A stretch of 33,005 nucleotides of DNA from Oscillospiraceae bacterium (GTDB lineage Bacteria; Bacillota; Clostridia; Oscillospirales; Oscillospiraceae): the NCBI GenBank assembly GCA_017535865.1, contig JAFXTM010000012.1:1-33005 (forward strand), given 5' to 3'. Positions 20,475 through 26,261 of this stretch are shown piece after piece; positions within the stretch are counted from its first letter, which is position 1, and every line of letters begins with the position of its first letter. The translations under genes and the position numbers were made by a program. The notes beneath the pieces were generated by a model. That model worked only from the letters and a program-made list of their open reading frames with translations. It ran no database searches and was not told the DNA's origin.

Positions 20475-21287
20475 TCAATGACAATTGATGTAAGCGATGG
20501 CGGTCGTATCCGTGAGGACCGCGTCGCATCGCCCGGCGAAGAGATACTCAAAGCACTGGGTCGTCCCTCCCGCGAGGCGCATGATCTGCCCCAGACGGCG
20601 CTCCAGCCGTGCATCCTTCTTGAGCGCTTCGAGCGCCTCCGGCGTCGAACACATGGCCATGCATTTGCCCTGCAGCATGAGCTTGTTGAAGAGCATGGTG
20701 CCGTTTCGCGTGGCGACCACAATGTCGTTTTTCACATAGGGACCGTAGCGGAGATACAGGCCCTGCTGCACCTCCTTGGGATCCAGCGCGATCCCGCCCC
20801 AGGCGCAGTCGATGTTGCCCGAGGAGAGCTCGACATATACGTTCTCCTTCTCGATCGCCTGGATCTTCAGATCCCAGCCGAGCTTTTCAGCAACAGCGAT
20901 TGCAAGCTCGACGTCATAACCCCAGTAGGTGTCGTTCGAGACATAAGCCATCGGGAAGGAATTGATATCCACACCGACGATGAATTCCCGCGGAAAGTTT
21001 TCCTCCGTCACCTCGTCGAGCGCCTTTGCATTCGCGTCGAAGTCGATCATCTTACTGCCGAACCACTTGATGGCGAGCTCGTCCACCTTGCCCTCGGCAG
21101 AGAGGACTTCCAGCGCCGCAATAACAAAGTCCGCAGTCGGGTCGTTGAGCCGGAAGGCCAGGGAGTACTCCTGCTCCACGAGTGTTTCAATGGTATGTAC
21201 ACCGTAGGCGCTGCCCCCCTGCCGGCCGCAGGCACACAGGCTCAGGGAGAGCGTGAGGACAAGCAAAACACAAATCGTTTTCTTCAC
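20475..21287 (-). CDS. Substrate-binding lipoprotein with apparently permuted SBP_bac_3 domain
   Basis: This 270-residue exported protein begins with a lipoprotein signal (basic start, hydrophobic core, lipobox L-C-A-C with C20 as the likely lipidated residue). The mature part resembles polar amino acid-binding proteins of ABC importers, but with the segments swapped. Residues about 40-77 (EYSLAFRLND...ALEVLSAEGKVDELAIKWFG) match what is normally the C-terminal end of the family. Residues about 102-270 (FIVGVDINSFPMAY...GYDVELAIAVAEKLG...SGNIDCAWGG...AGRCDAVLTDTTAIAY) match the normal N-terminal and middle parts and stop just where the missing end should follow. The start is GTG at 21287 with GGAGGA 7 bases upstream, and that site directly follows the stop of the M18 aminopeptidase, so the two are coupled. 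No ABC permease or ATPase gene is near. The ligand is unknown. Confidence 0.82.
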   Translation of the reverse strand: MKKTICVLLVLTLSLSLCACGRQGGSAYGVHTIETLVEQEYSLAFRLNDPTADFVIAALEVLSAEGKVDELAIKWFGSKMIDFDANAKALDEVTEENFPREFIVGVDINSFPMAYVSNDTYWGYDVELAIAVAEKLGWDLKIQAIEKENVYVELSSGNIDCAWGGIALDPKEVQQGLYLRYGPYVKNDIVVATRNGTMLFNKLMLQGKCMAMCSTPEALEALKKDARLERRLGQIMRLAGGTTQCFEYLFAGRCDAVLTDTTAIAYINCH

Positions 21288-21300
21288 GGAAAGCTCCTCC

Positions 21301-22647
21301 TCAATCTGCTGCCGTCCGGGCAACAGCTGCGTCGCAAGCAGCACGTCCGTCGCGGATCGTGAGTGTTTCACCGTTCAGATACAGACTGCTCGAGAAAAAG
21401 CGCTCTGCCGCCCGGATCATCCAAACCGTGTCCTGTGCACCGGCCGTCTCATAGCTGGAGTGCATGGCGAGCTGTGCAAGCCCGGCATCCAGCGAGCGGA
21501 CGGCCACCTGCCCCAGGCTGACATGTCCGAGCGTCCAGCCGCCGGCCAGATCCGCCCGGTTCGTATAGCGCTGCACCGGGACCTCTGCGCGGCGGCAGAT
21601 CTCCCGAAACACAGCGGCGCTCACAGCGTCGGTGATATACCGCTGCGAGGCGTTGAACTTGATGACGACGCCCTTGTTCATCTCCGGTCGATCCACAGGG
21701 TCCGCGTACTCGGGATGATTCGGGTGTACGGCGTGGGCGTTATCCGCCGAGACAAGAAAGCTCTGCGCCAACAGGCGCGGCAGAGAGCAGTTAAGGCAGA
21801 TGGCGATCCGTTCCAGCGTCCGCGCCAGGAAATCCGCACCCGCCCCTTGCCGGGTCGTGTTGCCGACTTCCTCATTGTCAAAGGCGCAGAAGACCGGGAC
21901 GGCGTCGCTCTCCCCTGCCTGCAGGAAACCTTGCGCGCAGGAGAAAACACACTGCAGGTCATCCAGGCGCGGGGAAGAGATAAACTCGTCCTCCGCGCCC
22001 CAGACTCTGCCAAGCGTTCGCGGATAGAACTGAAGCTCAGCGGATACGATATCTTTTTCCTCCGCTTCCGCCGCTTCGGCGATCAGGCGGCGAAAGCTCT
22101 CCGCACTTGCCTCTCCGCCGATCAGCGGGAGCATATCCGTCTTGAGGTCGAGGGCCTTGCCCTCGTTTGCGCTGCGGTCCATGTGGATCGCGACGTTCGG
22201 GATCAAGGCGACATCGCGCCGGAGATCCACCAGGCGTTCCCTGAGCGTCTCCCCTTCCCGGACGACGACCCGTCCCGCGACGGAGAGCGGCCGGTCAAGC
22301 CAGGTGGACAGCAGCATCCCCCCATATCGCTCCACGGGGACCTGCGCATAAACGCCGGCGGATCCCAAGGTCGTAAGCTCCTTGAGCCGCAGGCAGGGAG
22401 AATCGTTGTGCGCCGCCATCATCATGAAGCCGGCGGGCGTCCCCTGCGGGATGCGAAAAGCCAGGAGGCTTGAAGCGTTGCGGCGCACAAAGCAGCGCGC
22501 GCCGGGTCCAAGCGTCCATTCCTCTTCCTCGCGCAGTTCGCGGTAACCCGCCGCGCGGAGAAGCCCGGTAAGGTTTTCCGCCGTGTGCCAGGCTGTCGGG
22601 GACTTTTCAATAAATGCCAATAGATTCCGGTTGATGTCGTTTTCCAT
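21301..22647 (-). CDS. M18 family aminopeptidase
   Basis: This 448-residue zinc aminopeptidase of family M18 (aspartyl aminopeptidase type) should trim N-terminal residues, often acidic ones, from peptides in the cytosol. Metal and catalytic elements are visible: H80 and D82 in 'MMAAHNDSPCLRLK', the acidic pair in 'VFCAFDNEEVGN' and the histidines in 'VSADNAHAVHPNHPE'. 'VALIPNVAIHMDR' is typical of M18. I chose the ATG at 22647, with CGGAG 7 bases upstream, over an in-frame TTG two codons earlier. It is the first gene of a two-gene operon with the substrate-binding lipoprotein, which hints at peptide or amino acid uptake and use (inference). There is no signal peptide. Confidence 0.92.
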   Translation of the reverse strand: MENDINRNLLAFIEKSPTAWHTAENLTGLLRAAGYRELREEEEWTLGPGARCFVRRNASSLLAFRIPQGTPAGFMMMAAHNDSPCLRLKELTTLGSAGVYAQVPVERYGGMLLSTWLDRPLSVAGRVVVREGETLRERLVDLRRDVALIPNVAIHMDRSANEGKALDLKTDMLPLIGGEASAESFRRLIAEAAEAEEKDIVSAELQFYPRTLGRVWGAEDEFISSPRLDDLQCVFSCAQGFLQAGESDAVPVFCAFDNEEVGNTTRQGAGADFLARTLERIAICLNCSLPRLLAQSFLVSADNAHAVHPNHPEYADPVDRPEMNKGVVIKFNASQRYITDAVSAAVFREICRRAEVPVQRYTNRADLAGGWTLGHVSLGQVAVRSLDAGLAQLAMHSSYETAGAQDTVWMIRAAERFFSSSLYLNGETLTIRDGRAACDAAVARTAAD

Positions 22648-22663
22648 TTTCAAACTCCGAACA

Positions 22664-22697
22664 GGCAGGAAGGGCAGGCTCCGCTGCCCTTCCTGCC
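22664..22697 (-). other. Strong hairpin in the M18 leader / after the kinase-lectin gene
   Basis: GGCAGGAAGGGCAG and CTGCCCTTCCTGCC pair perfectly over 14 bp with a 6-base loop. It has no T-run on either side. It lies after the pseudokinase-lectin gene but downstream of a TATAAT, so it could be a leader structure of the M18 mRNA or a weak terminator of the gene before it. Confidence 0.65.
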
Positions 22698-22731: not shown

Positions 22732-24381
22732 TCATCCGTTTGTGAACTCGCAGAGATAGCCGATCTGTCCGCCGTAGACGCCGGGATCCGCAGAAACGGG
22801 ATCGTTGCGGCAGTCGATATAGGCCCAGCCGTCGCCGGTATTCCACAGCATGATATAGTCCTCGGCGGCGCCGTCGCGGCTGTCGGTATAGCTGGGCTCG
22901 TTGCTGGCCCAGATCATGTTCGCAACAGGCTCGGTGTTCTCCCAGAGCAGATAGCCGCCCTCGCGGTGGCAGCCGACCCAGACGCCCCGCACACCGGACT
23001 GCTGTGCGAGCTGGGTAACCATCGTGAACTCATCGGTCGTGTTGATGACGGCGAGCGTCCCGTTCTGGTCCGAGCAGGCATTTTTCGCGGCGGTCCAGCT
23101 GATATCGCCTTTGAACACCTGATAGTACGACGGGCGCGCGGCAGCCGCCTCCTCCTGCTGCTGACGGACCAGCTCCTCGCTTGAGATAAAAGCGTCGTCT
23201 TTGCCGATCGCGTTTTCGCCGACTTCCGGCATAGCGACGTTTTTTCCGCGGCCCTCGTCCTCCCACTCATAGTTGCGCAGGCGGGAATTTGCGATCAGCG
23301 CCGCAATGATCAACAGTCCGCACAGGATCAGCACCACGCCGATCGGACGCGTGCGGCGCTTTTTCACATTTTCCGTGATCTGGCGGTTGCGCTCCGCATC
23401 CGCGCTGTACTGGACACGCGGGCGTTTGCTTGGCGTCACCGGCGCCAGCTCCGGGTTTTTCTCCTCGGTCAAAATCGGGATCGGAAGGTGATCCTTCTGT
23501 GCCTTGCCGGGTTCATAGACACGCACATCCTCTTCCGGCTTTGGCTCCGCCGGGGCGGCAGGCTCCTCGACCTCCGGTTTTTCCGGTTCCCCGAAGACCT
23601 CTTGCACCAGAGCCTTCTTTTCGGCCTCGAGGTCCCGCTCTGCCGGCTTTTCTGGCGCATGCTCGGCAAGAATCTGCTCCTCGATTTCCTCCCGGCTGAG
23701 CGGCGGTTTCTTGTCCGGCTCCTCGACGCTTTCCGCCGGAACGGCCTCGTCCGTATCTTTTGTATCGGCAGGCTCGCCTTCGATGATGGCAAGCATCATG
23801 CGCTCAGCCTCGCTGAGCTCCGTCTCCTCTTTCTTTTTAAACAGCTCCGCGCCGCTTTCATAGCGGTCGTCCAGACAGCTCTTCAGCATCACGCCGAGCT
23901 CCTTCGCATCGGCATAGCGGTCCTCCGCGCGAAAGCTGCACGCTTTCTGCACGATCTCCGCCAGACGCACGCCCACGCCGGCGGGCGCCGGAAGCTCCTT
24001 TCCGGTCATGCGGCTGAGCTGCGCGGCCGGACTTTCATCCTCGAGCGGCAGCTTTCCGCCGCTCAGCCCATACCATAACAGCAGGCCGAGGGAATACACA
24101 TCGCTCGCCGGACCGCAGTCCCCGTCCCAGTAGAGCTCGGGAGCCACATACTGCAGTTCCTCCCCGCCCCAATCGCGAAGCGCTCCGGGGCCGATCACCG
24201 GTTCGCCGGACTCGCTTGTGCCTATATTGCCGGGAAAGATACCGCCGCGGTAGCCGGACTCGCCGGCCTCTTCGCTCACGACGCCGCACAGCTCGATCAC
24301 AAAGCGGCAGAGCTCCTGCCGATCCATCGACGCGATGCTTCGGCCGAGCGCCTTCGCCGGTTCAAATGTTCTCTCGCTCAT
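22732..24381 (-). CDS. Membrane pseudokinase with extracellular C-type lectin-like domain
   Basis: This 549-residue protein has three parts. Residues 1-175 are a protein-kinase C-lobe without the ATP-binding N-lobe: an APE helix (YVAPELYWDG, 78-87), 'SDVYSLGLLLWYGLSGG' (93-109, helix F) and 'ACSFRAEDRYADAKEL' (helix I). The HRD equivalent reads YRGG-IFPGN (44-52) and the DFG equivalent reads GPG (64-66), so both catalytic aspartates and the N-lobe lysine are absent. Residues about 176-345 are a charged, proline-rich linker. A transmembrane helix follows (about 347-365), and then a C-type lectin-like domain outside (about 419-547) with 'WTAAKNACSDQNGTLAVIN', 'GVWVGC', 'WASNEPS' and cysteines C436, C471, C524 and C544. 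Type II topology puts the kinase lobe in the cytosol. The function is unknown; signalling or scaffolding from a bound surface ligand is inference. It has its own promoter. Confidence 0.82.
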   Translation of the reverse strand: MSERTFEPAKALGRSIASMDRQELCRFVIELCGVVSEEAGESGYRGGIFPGNIGTSESGEPVIGPGALRDWGGEELQYVAPELYWDGDCGPASDVYSLGLLLWYGLSGGKLPLEDESPAAQLSRMTGKELPAPAGVGVRLAEIVQKACSFRAEDRYADAKELGVMLKSCLDDRYESGAELFKKKEETELSEAERMMLAIIEGEPADTKDTDEAVPAESVEEPDKKPPLSREEIEEQILAEHAPEKPAERDLEAEKKALVQEVFGEPEKPEVEEPAAPAEPKPEEDVRVYEPGKAQKDHLPIPILTEEKNPELAPVTPSKRPRVQYSADAERNRQITENVKKRRTRPIGVVLILCGLLIIAALIANSRLRNYEWEDEGRGKNVAMPEVGENAIGKDDAFISSEELVRQQQEEAAAARPSYYQVFKGDISWTAAKNACSDQNGTLAVINTTDEFTMVTQLAQQSGVRGVWVGCHREGGYLLWENTEPVANMIWASNEPSYTDSRDGAAEDYIMLWNTGDGWAYIDCRNDPVSADPGVYGGQIGYLCEFTNG

Positions 24382-24422: not shown

Positions 24423-24451
24423 ATGTTAACACAGCCGAGCGGATTCGTCAA
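24423..24451 (-). promoter_or_regulatory. Promoter of the pseudokinase-lectin gene
   Basis: On the minus strand, TTGACG (24446-24451) and TAACAT (24423-24428) are 17 bases apart, about 40 bases before the ATG at 24381. Confidence 0.65.
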
Positions 24452-24508: not shown

Positions 24509-26119
24509 TCAACGCTCCATTTTGTCTGCAAGGTGCGTGATCGAGTCGGCATAGCCCGCAAGCTCCTTGTTTGCATGGCCCTCGAGTCCCTTTGCGATGC
24601 GCAGCAGACGCTCGGCCGCCTCGACAAGACGCGTATAGGTGGGGCTGGTCCGGCGCTGTTTTCCGCCGTCGGACTTCTTTTCAACGGGCTTCCCCTCCGG
24701 CATACGAACGAAGCTGCGCCGGAGCAGATCAAAGCATGCACCGCTGTACGGTGCGTAAGCGTGATAGCCGAGTTCATCATTGAGACAGGCGGCGAAGGCG
24801 TCGACGGTCTCGGGGTCGCCGTGGTTGACGAAGACCAGCGCCGGCTTTTCCGCAAAGCCGCCCAGCCAGCGCAGCAGCCCCGCTTTGTCCGCATGGCCGC
24901 TGACGCCGGGCAGCGTGTCGATCTCAGCCTCCACCTGAATATCCTCGTTGAAAAGCTTCACGTGCTTCGCGCCGTCGATCAGGATCCGGCCCAGGGTCCC
25001 GACTGCCTGGTAACCCACGAAAAGCACCATGCATTCCGGGCGCCAGAGGTTATGCTTGAGATGATGGCGGATGCGCCCCGCATCGCACATTCCGCTCGCG
25101 GAGAGGATGATCTTGGGCGTCTTGTCCTCGTTGATGGCTCTGGACTCCTCCTGGGAGACGCTGAGTTCCAGGCCGGGAAAAACGATGGGGTTGACGCCGG
25201 AGTGGATCAGACGCTTCATTTCCTCATCGAAATACTGCGTGTCGCACTGGAGGAAGATGCTCGTCGCCTCGATCGCGAGCGGACTGTCGATGTAGACCGG
25301 GAAATCCCCGTGGCCGCGGACAAGCCCACGCTCCTTGATCTCCCGGATGAAATACAGCATCTCCTGCGTGCGGCCGACCGCAAAAGAGGGAATGAGCATG
25401 TTTCCGCCGCGGTCCAGCGTTTTCTGGATCCGGGCAGCCAGCTCCGATACATAGTCCACGCGCTCCTCGCTGTGCAGGCTGTCGCCGTAGGTCGATTCGA
25501 GCACAAGGTATTCCGTGTCGTGCACAAACTGGGGATCGCGGAGGATGGGCTGATCAAGGTTGCCAACGTCGCCCGAAAACGTGATCTTGCGCGTTTCCCC
25601 TCCCTCACGGAGCCAGACCTCGATCGCCGAGGAGCCGAGAAGGTGCCCCACATCGGTCAGGCGGATCGTGACGCAGTCGTTGACCTGGATCTCCTCTCTG
25701 TAGCCGCAGGGGCGCAGCTGCCCGATGATCCCGAGTGCGTCGTCCATGTCGTAAAGGGGCTCCACATCCCCGCCGCCGCTGCGCTTGGACTTGCGGTTTT
25801 TCCACTCGGCCTCGGACATCTGGATGTTCGCACAGTCGCGCAGCATGACGTCGCAGAGCGAACAGGTGGCAGCACTGGCATAGACCGGACCGCGGTACCC
25901 GCCCTTATAGAGCAGGGGGAGCTGCCCGCTGTGGTCGATGTGCGCATGCGTCAGCAGAACAAAGTCCAGCTCTGCGGGTGAGATCGGCAATTCCTCATTC
26001 ACGAAAAGATCCTTGCCCTGCTCCATGCCGAAATCCACGAGGCCCTTCTTGTCTCCGACCTCAATAAAGGTACAGCTGCCCGTCACCTCATGAGCGGCAC
26101 CGAGAAACGTGATCTTCAT
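24509..26119 (-). CDS. Beta-CASP metallo-beta-lactamase-fold RNase-like protein
   Basis: This 536-residue protein is of the metallo-beta-lactamase/beta-CASP group (CPSF73/YSH1-like), whose members cleave RNA with two zinc ions. The HxHxDH motif HAHIDH is at 58-63, followed by the later ligands in 'TDVGHLLGSSAIEV' and 'FSGDVGNLDQPIL'. 'VYIDSPLAIEAT' and 'ILSASGMCDAGRIRHHLKHNL' are the beta-CASP A and B motifs, and 'SGHADKAGLLRWL' carries the RNA-specificity histidine. It lacks the KH domain of archaeal CPSF proteins. About 60 C-terminal residues form a Lys-rich, then helical extension. The ATG at 26119 has AAAGGAG 9 bases upstream. It is divergent from bioY and has its own promoter. An RNA substrate is likely but unproven. 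Confidence 0.9.
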   Translation of the reverse strand: MKITFLGAAHEVTGSCTFIEVGDKKGLVDFGMEQGKDLFVNEELPISPAELDFVLLTHAHIDHSGQLPLLYKGGYRGPVYASAATCSLCDVMLRDCANIQMSEAEWKNRKSKRSGGGDVEPLYDMDDALGIIGQLRPCGYREEIQVNDCVTIRLTDVGHLLGSSAIEVWLREGGETRKITFSGDVGNLDQPILRDPQFVHDTEYLVLESTYGDSLHSEERVDYVSELAARIQKTLDRGGNMLIPSFAVGRTQEMLYFIREIKERGLVRGHGDFPVYIDSPLAIEATSIFLQCDTQYFDEEMKRLIHSGVNPIVFPGLELSVSQEESRAINEDKTPKIILSASGMCDAGRIRHHLKHNLWRPECMVLFVGYQAVGTLGRILIDGAKHVKLFNEDIQVEAEIDTLPGVSGHADKAGLLRWLGGFAEKPALVFVNHGDPETVDAFAACLNDELGYHAYAPYSGACFDLLRRSFVRMPEGKPVEKKSDGGKQRRTSPTYTRLVEAAERLLRIAKGLEGHANKELAGYADSITHLADKMER

Positions 26120-26160
26120 TATCGTTTGCTCCTTTCCCGGAATTATCCCTTTTTCTATAT

Positions 26161-26189
26161 ATTTTACACCCGCTTCCCTCAATACGCAA
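26161..26189 (-). promoter_or_regulatory. Promoter of the beta-CASP gene
   Basis: On the minus strand, TTGCGT (26184-26189) and TGTAAAAT (TAAAAT at 26161-26166) are spaced 17 bases apart, about 40 bases upstream of the ATG. Confidence 0.65.
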
Positions 26190-26230
26190 TTGCTGTTTGG
26201 AAAAGTTAAGATTTTCACGCCATCCTCTAT

Positions 26231-26261
26231 TGTCAACTAATTATGTATCTAATAGTTGACA
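26231..26261. promoter_or_regulatory. Dyad operator over the bioY promoter, probable BirA site
   Basis: TGTCAACTA (26231-26239) and TAGTTGACA (26253-26261) are perfect inverted 9-base arms, 13 bases apart. The arm sequence and spacing resemble BirA operators of Gram-positive bacteria (TTGTTAAC-type arms about 14-16 bases apart). The right arm covers the -35 box of bioY, so binding would block transcription, and birA is the second gene of the same operon. Confidence 0.72.

Follow-up and report, generated by a model that had tools for sequence, protein, structure and literature searches.

What can a bacterial membrane protein do with one lobe of a protein kinase that lacks its catalytic residues? 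The question is raised by a gene at positions 22732..24381, minus strand, of the window, that is, the whole 33,005-nucleotide stretch from an Oscillospiraceae bacterium that was analysed. The ORF call, Pfam and homologues give a product of 549 amino acids that comprises, in this order, a kinase C-lobe, a linker, a transmembrane (TM) segment and a C-type-lectin-like domain (CTLD); all its features given below lie on the same strand. An earlier note, made from the sequence alone, had described a membrane protein joining a dead kinase lobe to a CTLD. Pfam, profile alignments and hydropathy bear this out, and the family is under purifying selection. As far as sequences can tell, and with profile-based fold assignments for both domains, there is thus a family in uncultured Clostridia of membrane proteins with an inner half of dead protein kinase and an outer domain of lectin type.

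The kinase homology occupies residues 1-172 (23866..24381). In Pfam, PK_Tyr_Ser-Thr (PF07714) matches residues 76-155 above its cut-off (E 5e-6), and Pkinase (PF00069) scores 17.1 bits, under its cut-off of 31.7. The best NCBIfam match is a PASTA kinase model (residues 77-214, E 5e-14), which scores 52 bits where its cut-off is 450. Profile searches with the lobe alone, a check that the earlier note had proposed, recovered kinase C-lobe homology. Namely, a profile of eight orthologues (A1) aligned by hhalign with a profile (A4) built on 13 kinases of the window's genus and order, over residues 19-176, with a probability of 99.8 and E 2e-28, and PknB was the top PDB match of the lobe profile (4.6e-8). 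The C-lobe landmarks recognised before are all in place: the APE motif (residues 80-82, 24136..24144), SDVYSLG in alphaF (residues 93-99, 24085..24105) and the helix-I arginine, with E82, D94 and R155 each kept in 52/52 lobed rows.

The missing N-lobe reported in the earlier note was likewise confirmed. In hhalign, nothing in the orthologue profile corresponds to the first ~130 kinase residues, so the N-lobe with its Gly-loop and beta3 Lys is missing. Nor does it lie hidden 5' of the ORF, since the open frame has 562 codons and thus exceeds the ORF by only 13. The longest N-terminal extensions in the family (G858, G923) are acidic and Pro/Glu-rich, which also argues against a concealed N-lobe. 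To extend the comparison, 97 proteins were assembled from 60 of the 62 loci, 36 proteins of the wider survey and the protein of G221, leaving out L080 (the second locus of G049) and the frame-broken G031. They comprise 6 complete kinases, 8 lobe-less proteins and 83 C-lobe-only proteins (75 assigned by pattern, 8 by profile and eye). The match to the kinase model begins at position 165 at least in 83/83 C-lobe-only proteins, against positions 103-118 in the six complete kinases.

Both catalytic sites appear to be dead, as the earlier note had claimed, but its readings YRG and GPG were one residue out of register. In hhalign against the 13 kinases and in a 48-sequence alignment, HRDIKP aligns to R45-G46-G47-I-F-P, which puts a glycine in the place of the catalytic aspartate (24241..24249); the same two alignments give P65-G66-A67 as the DFG equivalent (24181..24189). 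The RGG register is favoured because the loops of other genera read, e.g., HGGVRPDN. No C-lobe-only protein keeps the HRD aspartate (0/83). An aspartate stands at the DFG site in 5/83 and also, as aligned in the 48-sequence alignment, in G956. Whichever register is used, the window protein reads as having neither catalytic base nor metal-binding aspartate. An active Hanks-type Ser/Thr protein kinase has an N-lobe, an HRD Asp and a DFG Asp, and none of the three is recognised here. By its kinase homology and the loss of catalytic residues, the protein is classified as a bacterial pseudokinase that consists of a C-lobe only. Because N-lobe, catalytic Asp and DFG Asp are all missing, it should neither bind ATP nor transfer phosphate from it.

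The CTLD spans residues 416-549 (22735..23136). Lectin_C matches residues 428-500 above its Pfam cut-off (E 1.8e-6), and a profile of the domain (A2) has PDB matches to DEC-205 (2.5e-5 for its best single domain), to mannose receptors and to the low-affinity IgE receptor. Together with the WVG and WASNEPS motifs in the window protein, these matches support the lectin-like fold proposed for it with W-x-G and WASNEPS at its core. The core cysteines hold less generally: 42/60 rows have C436 as well as C544, 12 have neither and 6 have the first alone.

EPN is the usual motif for calcium-dependent sugar binding, and C-type lectins that bind carbohydrate through calcium carry EPN or QPD plus WND ligands. 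In the window protein, EPS replaces EPN at residues 495-497 (22891..22899), as residue counts and a motif survey indicate. E495, P496, E507 and D523 are invariant in 60/60 rows. Position 497 is Ser in 52 and Thr in 8 of them, so that EPS/EPT is found throughout. At 522 most rows have Asn (53), the others Ile (5, the window protein included) or Trp (2). Within the last 120 residues, EPN occurs in 6/6 complete kinase-CTLD proteins versus 0/91 dead or lobe-less ones. The strict motif pattern missed 9 of the 97 proteins; by eye, four of these show EPS or QPS, and the other five come from genus g443, where the CTLD is degenerate and lacks the motif. Since the six complete kinases are mutually related, the association of EPN with a live kinase is a lineage-level link rather than independent evidence. 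The altered motif makes classical sugar binding less likely. Of the surface ligand suggested in the earlier note, glycan or protein, it is thus the glycan in its classical form that is weakened; calcium or sugar may still be bound by another arrangement. We would expect the CTLD to bind a surface ligand, possibly an envelope polymer or a protein and not a sugar held by calcium in the classical way. Two other CTLD proteins came to light as well. One (L080 7978-10668, G049) combines Peptidase C26 and a hydrophobic segment at the N-terminus with a CTLD ~46% identical to that of the window protein. The other (L052 5912-6727, G006) is encoded directly 3' of a family member and has acidic repeats and, by eye, a lipoprotein-like start.

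Hydropathy and flank charge place a single TM segment at residues 346-364 (23290..23346), preceded by KKRRTRP. One hydrophobic TM-like segment was found in 61/62 loci, in most with the positive flank on its N-terminal side; for this reason the lobe is predicted to lie inside and the CTLD outside. On a crude hydropathy scale, 71/83 C-lobe-only proteins have one hydrophobic segment and 12/83 have two, the extra stretch falling in the lobe, in the linker or near the N-terminus. The flank-charge rule gives N-in for 78/83 of them versus 3/6 complete kinases. The low share among the complete kinases and the second stretches speak against the predicted layout. A conserved motif of 27 residues, FxKxxxELSxxERMMxxI, occupies the juxtamembrane region (residues 178-205, 23767..23850). 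It follows the lobe in lobed members and stands near the N-terminus in lobe-less ones, where its pattern is kept in 7/8 intact proteins. A profile of the motif found no convincing protein beyond the family in 40 genomes (best other match E 0.007), and we discarded the idea that it is a general module. A different conserved stretch, of the YKVDKDFEK type, occurs in other genera (15/97 proteins by pattern). In g443, an SH3_3 domain precedes the degenerate CTLD on pseudokinase C-lobe proteins (L180, L182 and L184, the three tested), which suggests an association with the envelope or cell wall.

How widespread is this architecture? The survey of such fusions in Clostridia that the earlier note had called for shows that 19 genera of the window's family have proteins of the C-lobe/CTLD form, the CTLD being degenerate in one of these genera (g443). 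At order level, 14/295 genomes pass a threshold of 1e-20; among them, the C-lobe/CTLD form appears only in the window's family (a kinase-only match, G177, was left out). Within that family, 77/300 genomes (31/106 genera) match at 1e-25, a count that includes other CTLD or kinase proteins. Among 36 regions taken from matching family genomes, a CTLD goes with a C-lobe in 31 and with a complete kinase in 3; one region has a CTLD but no kinase, and one a kinase but no CTLD. Three regions from the family of G221 gave two complete kinases with CTLD and one CTLD only. In the window's genus, a family member was found in 57/60 other genomes, most of which are incomplete drafts, and G025, G055 and G060 gave kinase matches only.

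With the window protein counted, the lobe is present in 49/58 genus members and missing in 9/58, one of which (L142, G031) has a broken reading frame. The lobe-less members keep TM segment and CTLD. In a tree of the post-lobe region, the eight intact ones fall in three places (G001/G019/G023/G058; G005/G016/G024; G013), with lobed outgroups and with some low supports (0.30-0.86 around the second and third groups). The lobe thus appears to be missing at three or more places of the tree. In this regard, the suggestion that the protein signals through an inactive kinase module stands in part: the lobe is dead and lacks its N-lobe, but signalling via the pseudokinase is not the whole function, given that nine members retain TM segment and CTLD without it. 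By the same token, whatever work the CTLD does, it does not require the lobe. Across 12 sister pairs that we picked ourselves, the lobe had dN/dS values of 0.05-0.19 by the Nei-Gojobori method and the CTLD values of 0.03-0.19; the linker was mostly looser. These values argue that the lobe is maintained where present, and its absence elsewhere, that it is nonetheless dispensable. Conservation and dN/dS also disfavour a pseudogene.

Complete kinases joined to a CTLD exist as well. Within the window's taxonomic order, such membrane proteins occur in one other family (L101 of G221, G735 and G731) and in the window's own (G906, G1043 and G893). They have HRD, with DFG or DFS in the five that were aligned; Pfam was run on three of them. 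Three more genomes match L101 over nearly its full length. In yet another family of the class, L135 (G479) carries a kinase-CTLD gene beside a PP2C gene and two kinase genes, one cut by the contig end. These complete proteins (L101/L203/L204, L200-L202, L135) share the arrangement of the window protein, namely kinase, hydrophobic segment and C-terminal CTLD, yet they keep the N-lobe, HRD and the EPN/WND calcium motif, which the window family does not. Their presence in the window's order, together with L135 elsewhere in the class, indicates that the family has a receptor-kinase layout. In the lobe tree built from the 48-sequence alignment, the pseudokinases form one weakly supported group (0.56) beside, not inside, the complete kinase-CTLD group. 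Direct descent from proteins of the L101 type is therefore unsupported, and independent kinase/CTLD fusions are possible.

The surroundings of the gene were examined for regulatory sites and for partners. Directly upstream on the same strand lies a gene assigned to the beta-CASP/RMMBL metallo-hydrolases (24509..26236, minus strand). The same neighbour is found in 39/49 lobed genus members versus 0/9 lobe-less ones, although in four of the nine lobe-less loci the upstream sequence is shorter than 1.4 kb. It is also near in five loci of other genera, a search in which one further genus member turned up as well. This may be a positional association only, with no obvious link to the window gene. 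In 27/49 loci, some of which are the same contig twice, a gene resembling the solute-binding protein gene at 20475-21371 is no more than a few kb away. Between the upstream gene and the ORF there is a promoter-like TTGACG-17-TAACAT whose second hexamer is preceded by TG (24423..24451, minus strand), one of two sites in the region and no excess over the 1.3 expected in shuffles. A 14-bp inverted repeat between the ORF and an M18 peptidase gene (22664..22697, fold z -3.6) was rejected as a clear terminator for the ORF, its T-rich tail being on the plus-strand side; terminator-like sites in the region are no commoner than in shuffles. A kinase profile that includes the N-lobe detected no further kinase-like gene beside the family gene in 62 loci (778 kb, some on short contigs), and on this ground a split kinase with its N-lobe in a neighbouring gene was rejected. 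In the window's own genome, L088 3697-5937 (C34), the sole other match to the window protein there, encodes a kinase, a weak zinc ribbon and a TIR domain.

Taken together, we favour a non-catalytic receptor or tether of the envelope, of type II (N-in, C-out), that docks partners via the C-lobe and the juxtamembrane motif; we regard the chances that this is right as evenly balanced. The C-lobe would be kept as a protein-docking surface formed by alphaE-alphaI and the APE/SDVYSLG core. When the CTLD outside is occupied or clustered, C-lobe and motif would recruit or release a cytosolic partner. Like the topology, the binding of a ligand, the docking of partners and the direction of signalling are what we infer from the architecture. 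A plainer possibility, which we consider real but rather doubtful, is a surface adhesin or wall anchor, in which CTLD and TM segment hold a surface polymer or organise the envelope and the inner parts merely fix the protein, with no signal. The repeated loss of the lobe while TM segment and CTLD are kept fits such an anchor, as do the SH3_3, SLH or VWA domains on other CTLD proteins of the group. Yet an anchor does not account for a lobe under purifying selection similar to that of the CTLD, nor for the conservation of a juxtamembrane motif seen with confidence in no other protein of 40 genomes, and the complete kinase versions share the same layout.

Decay of a receptor kinase that is losing its inner part could be read from the missing N-lobe, the nine genus members without a C-lobe and the broken frame of G031. 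We consider it highly improbable because of the low dN/dS of the lobe, which is moreover open and present in 49/58 genus members and across 19 genera. The dead lobe might instead pair with an active kinase encoded elsewhere, such as one with PASTA-like repeats, and add the input of the CTLD. The window's genome does hold a complete kinase with PASTA-like repeats, as judged by eye (L090), and other kinases too, and the available text of a review (PMC12599244) describes pseudokinases that activate their partner kinases allosterically. However, the same text places the dimer-interface constraints of MviN in the N-lobe, which is missing here, and the partner kinase that the earlier note had proposed to look for was adjacent to the family gene in none of the 62 loci, some of them on short contigs; we judge this pairing unlikely. 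To return to the receptor or tether, a bolder version of it may be put forward tentatively, with a prospect of holding that is well below even. A kinase C-lobe stripped of its N-lobe would live on in a bacterial surface receptor as a free-standing docking module coupled to a ligand, the ectodomain of the dead-kinase lineage would have another binding chemistry, with EPS/EPT where EPN is usual, and some species would have dropped the lobe and signal by the 27-residue motif alone. If true, a receptor kinase would have been converted stepwise to a kinase-free receptor.

Several known systems resemble the window protein in part. PASTA kinases (PknB/PrkC/StkP) have the layout kinase, linker, TM segment and outer repeats. 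They share the order of parts with the window protein, and PknB is the best PDB match of its lobe profile, but they are active, two-lobed and carry PASTA where it has a CTLD. EssB/YukC is, like the window protein, a cytosolic pseudokinase on a single TM segment and a non-catalytic scaffold; it belongs to type VII secretion, its available descriptions give it no CTLD, and it differs in that the window protein is without an N-lobe (PMC12599244; PMC9600267). The MviN pseudokinase (ActPs3 family) is another membrane-linked dead kinase that serves binding, yet it keeps its N-lobe, is annotated mainly in Actinobacteria and is attached to a different membrane protein, according to the part of PMC12599244 at hand. 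The window protein, whose N-lobe is missing, was also set against the pseudokinases of the 42-family bSTK scheme (ActPs1-3, DLHK, GLW, CP1, DYD), each with a motif and constraint pattern of its own, as described in that part; it may or may not belong to one of them. In cyanobacteria, serine-kinase/CLec fusions also combine an N-terminal kinase with a C-terminal C-type-lectin fold. In the available text they are treated as kinases, their CLec domains are hypervariable, being diversified by retroelements, and most such retroelement-targeted proteins are predicted to be cytosolic (PMC7517822); the window protein, in contrast, is dead, membrane-bound and conserved in its CTLD. A CTLD with dN/dS of 0.03-0.19 in the 12 pairs is not hypervariable, as those targets of retroelements are.

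The earlier note knew of no bacterial system with this architecture. This holds for a pseudokinase/CTLD membrane protein, no description of which we recognised in the open-access literature searched; it does not extend to the combination of kinase and lectin fold, given the cyanobacterial fusions (PMC7517822, available text) and the complete kinase-CTLD proteins of the window's taxonomic order. Lectins are not mentioned in the available portions of a review of bacterial pseudokinases, which calls these proteins largely unexplored (PMC12599244), or of a survey of prokaryotic kinase architectures (PMC1262709). We recognised no half-kinase of such a kind in the literature found. The natural series within one bacterial group, from complete kinase-lectin through C-lobe-lectin to lobe-less lectin, allows tests of the role of a kinase C-lobe that no longer catalyses, and of C-type-lectin ectodomains as possible inputs to bacterial signalling.

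Other combinations of these domains were seen alongside. L136 2689-4188 (G700) has a TIR domain, a segment that looks hydrophobic by eye, a PASTA match that narrowly misses the cut-off and a C-terminal CTLD, and thus joins a lectin ectodomain to another signalling domain. A VWA domain followed by a terminal CTLD occurs in L098, L099, L100 and L199; Pfam adds a zinc ribbon and TPR in L098 and L199, and L099 and L100 were assigned by reading the sequence. L205 1969-3060 (G758) is a CTLD protein with S-layer homology domains. Finally, in L103 3855-6089 (G313), VanW and G5 domains are fused to a kinase-like domain in which the motifs read HGD/GFD.
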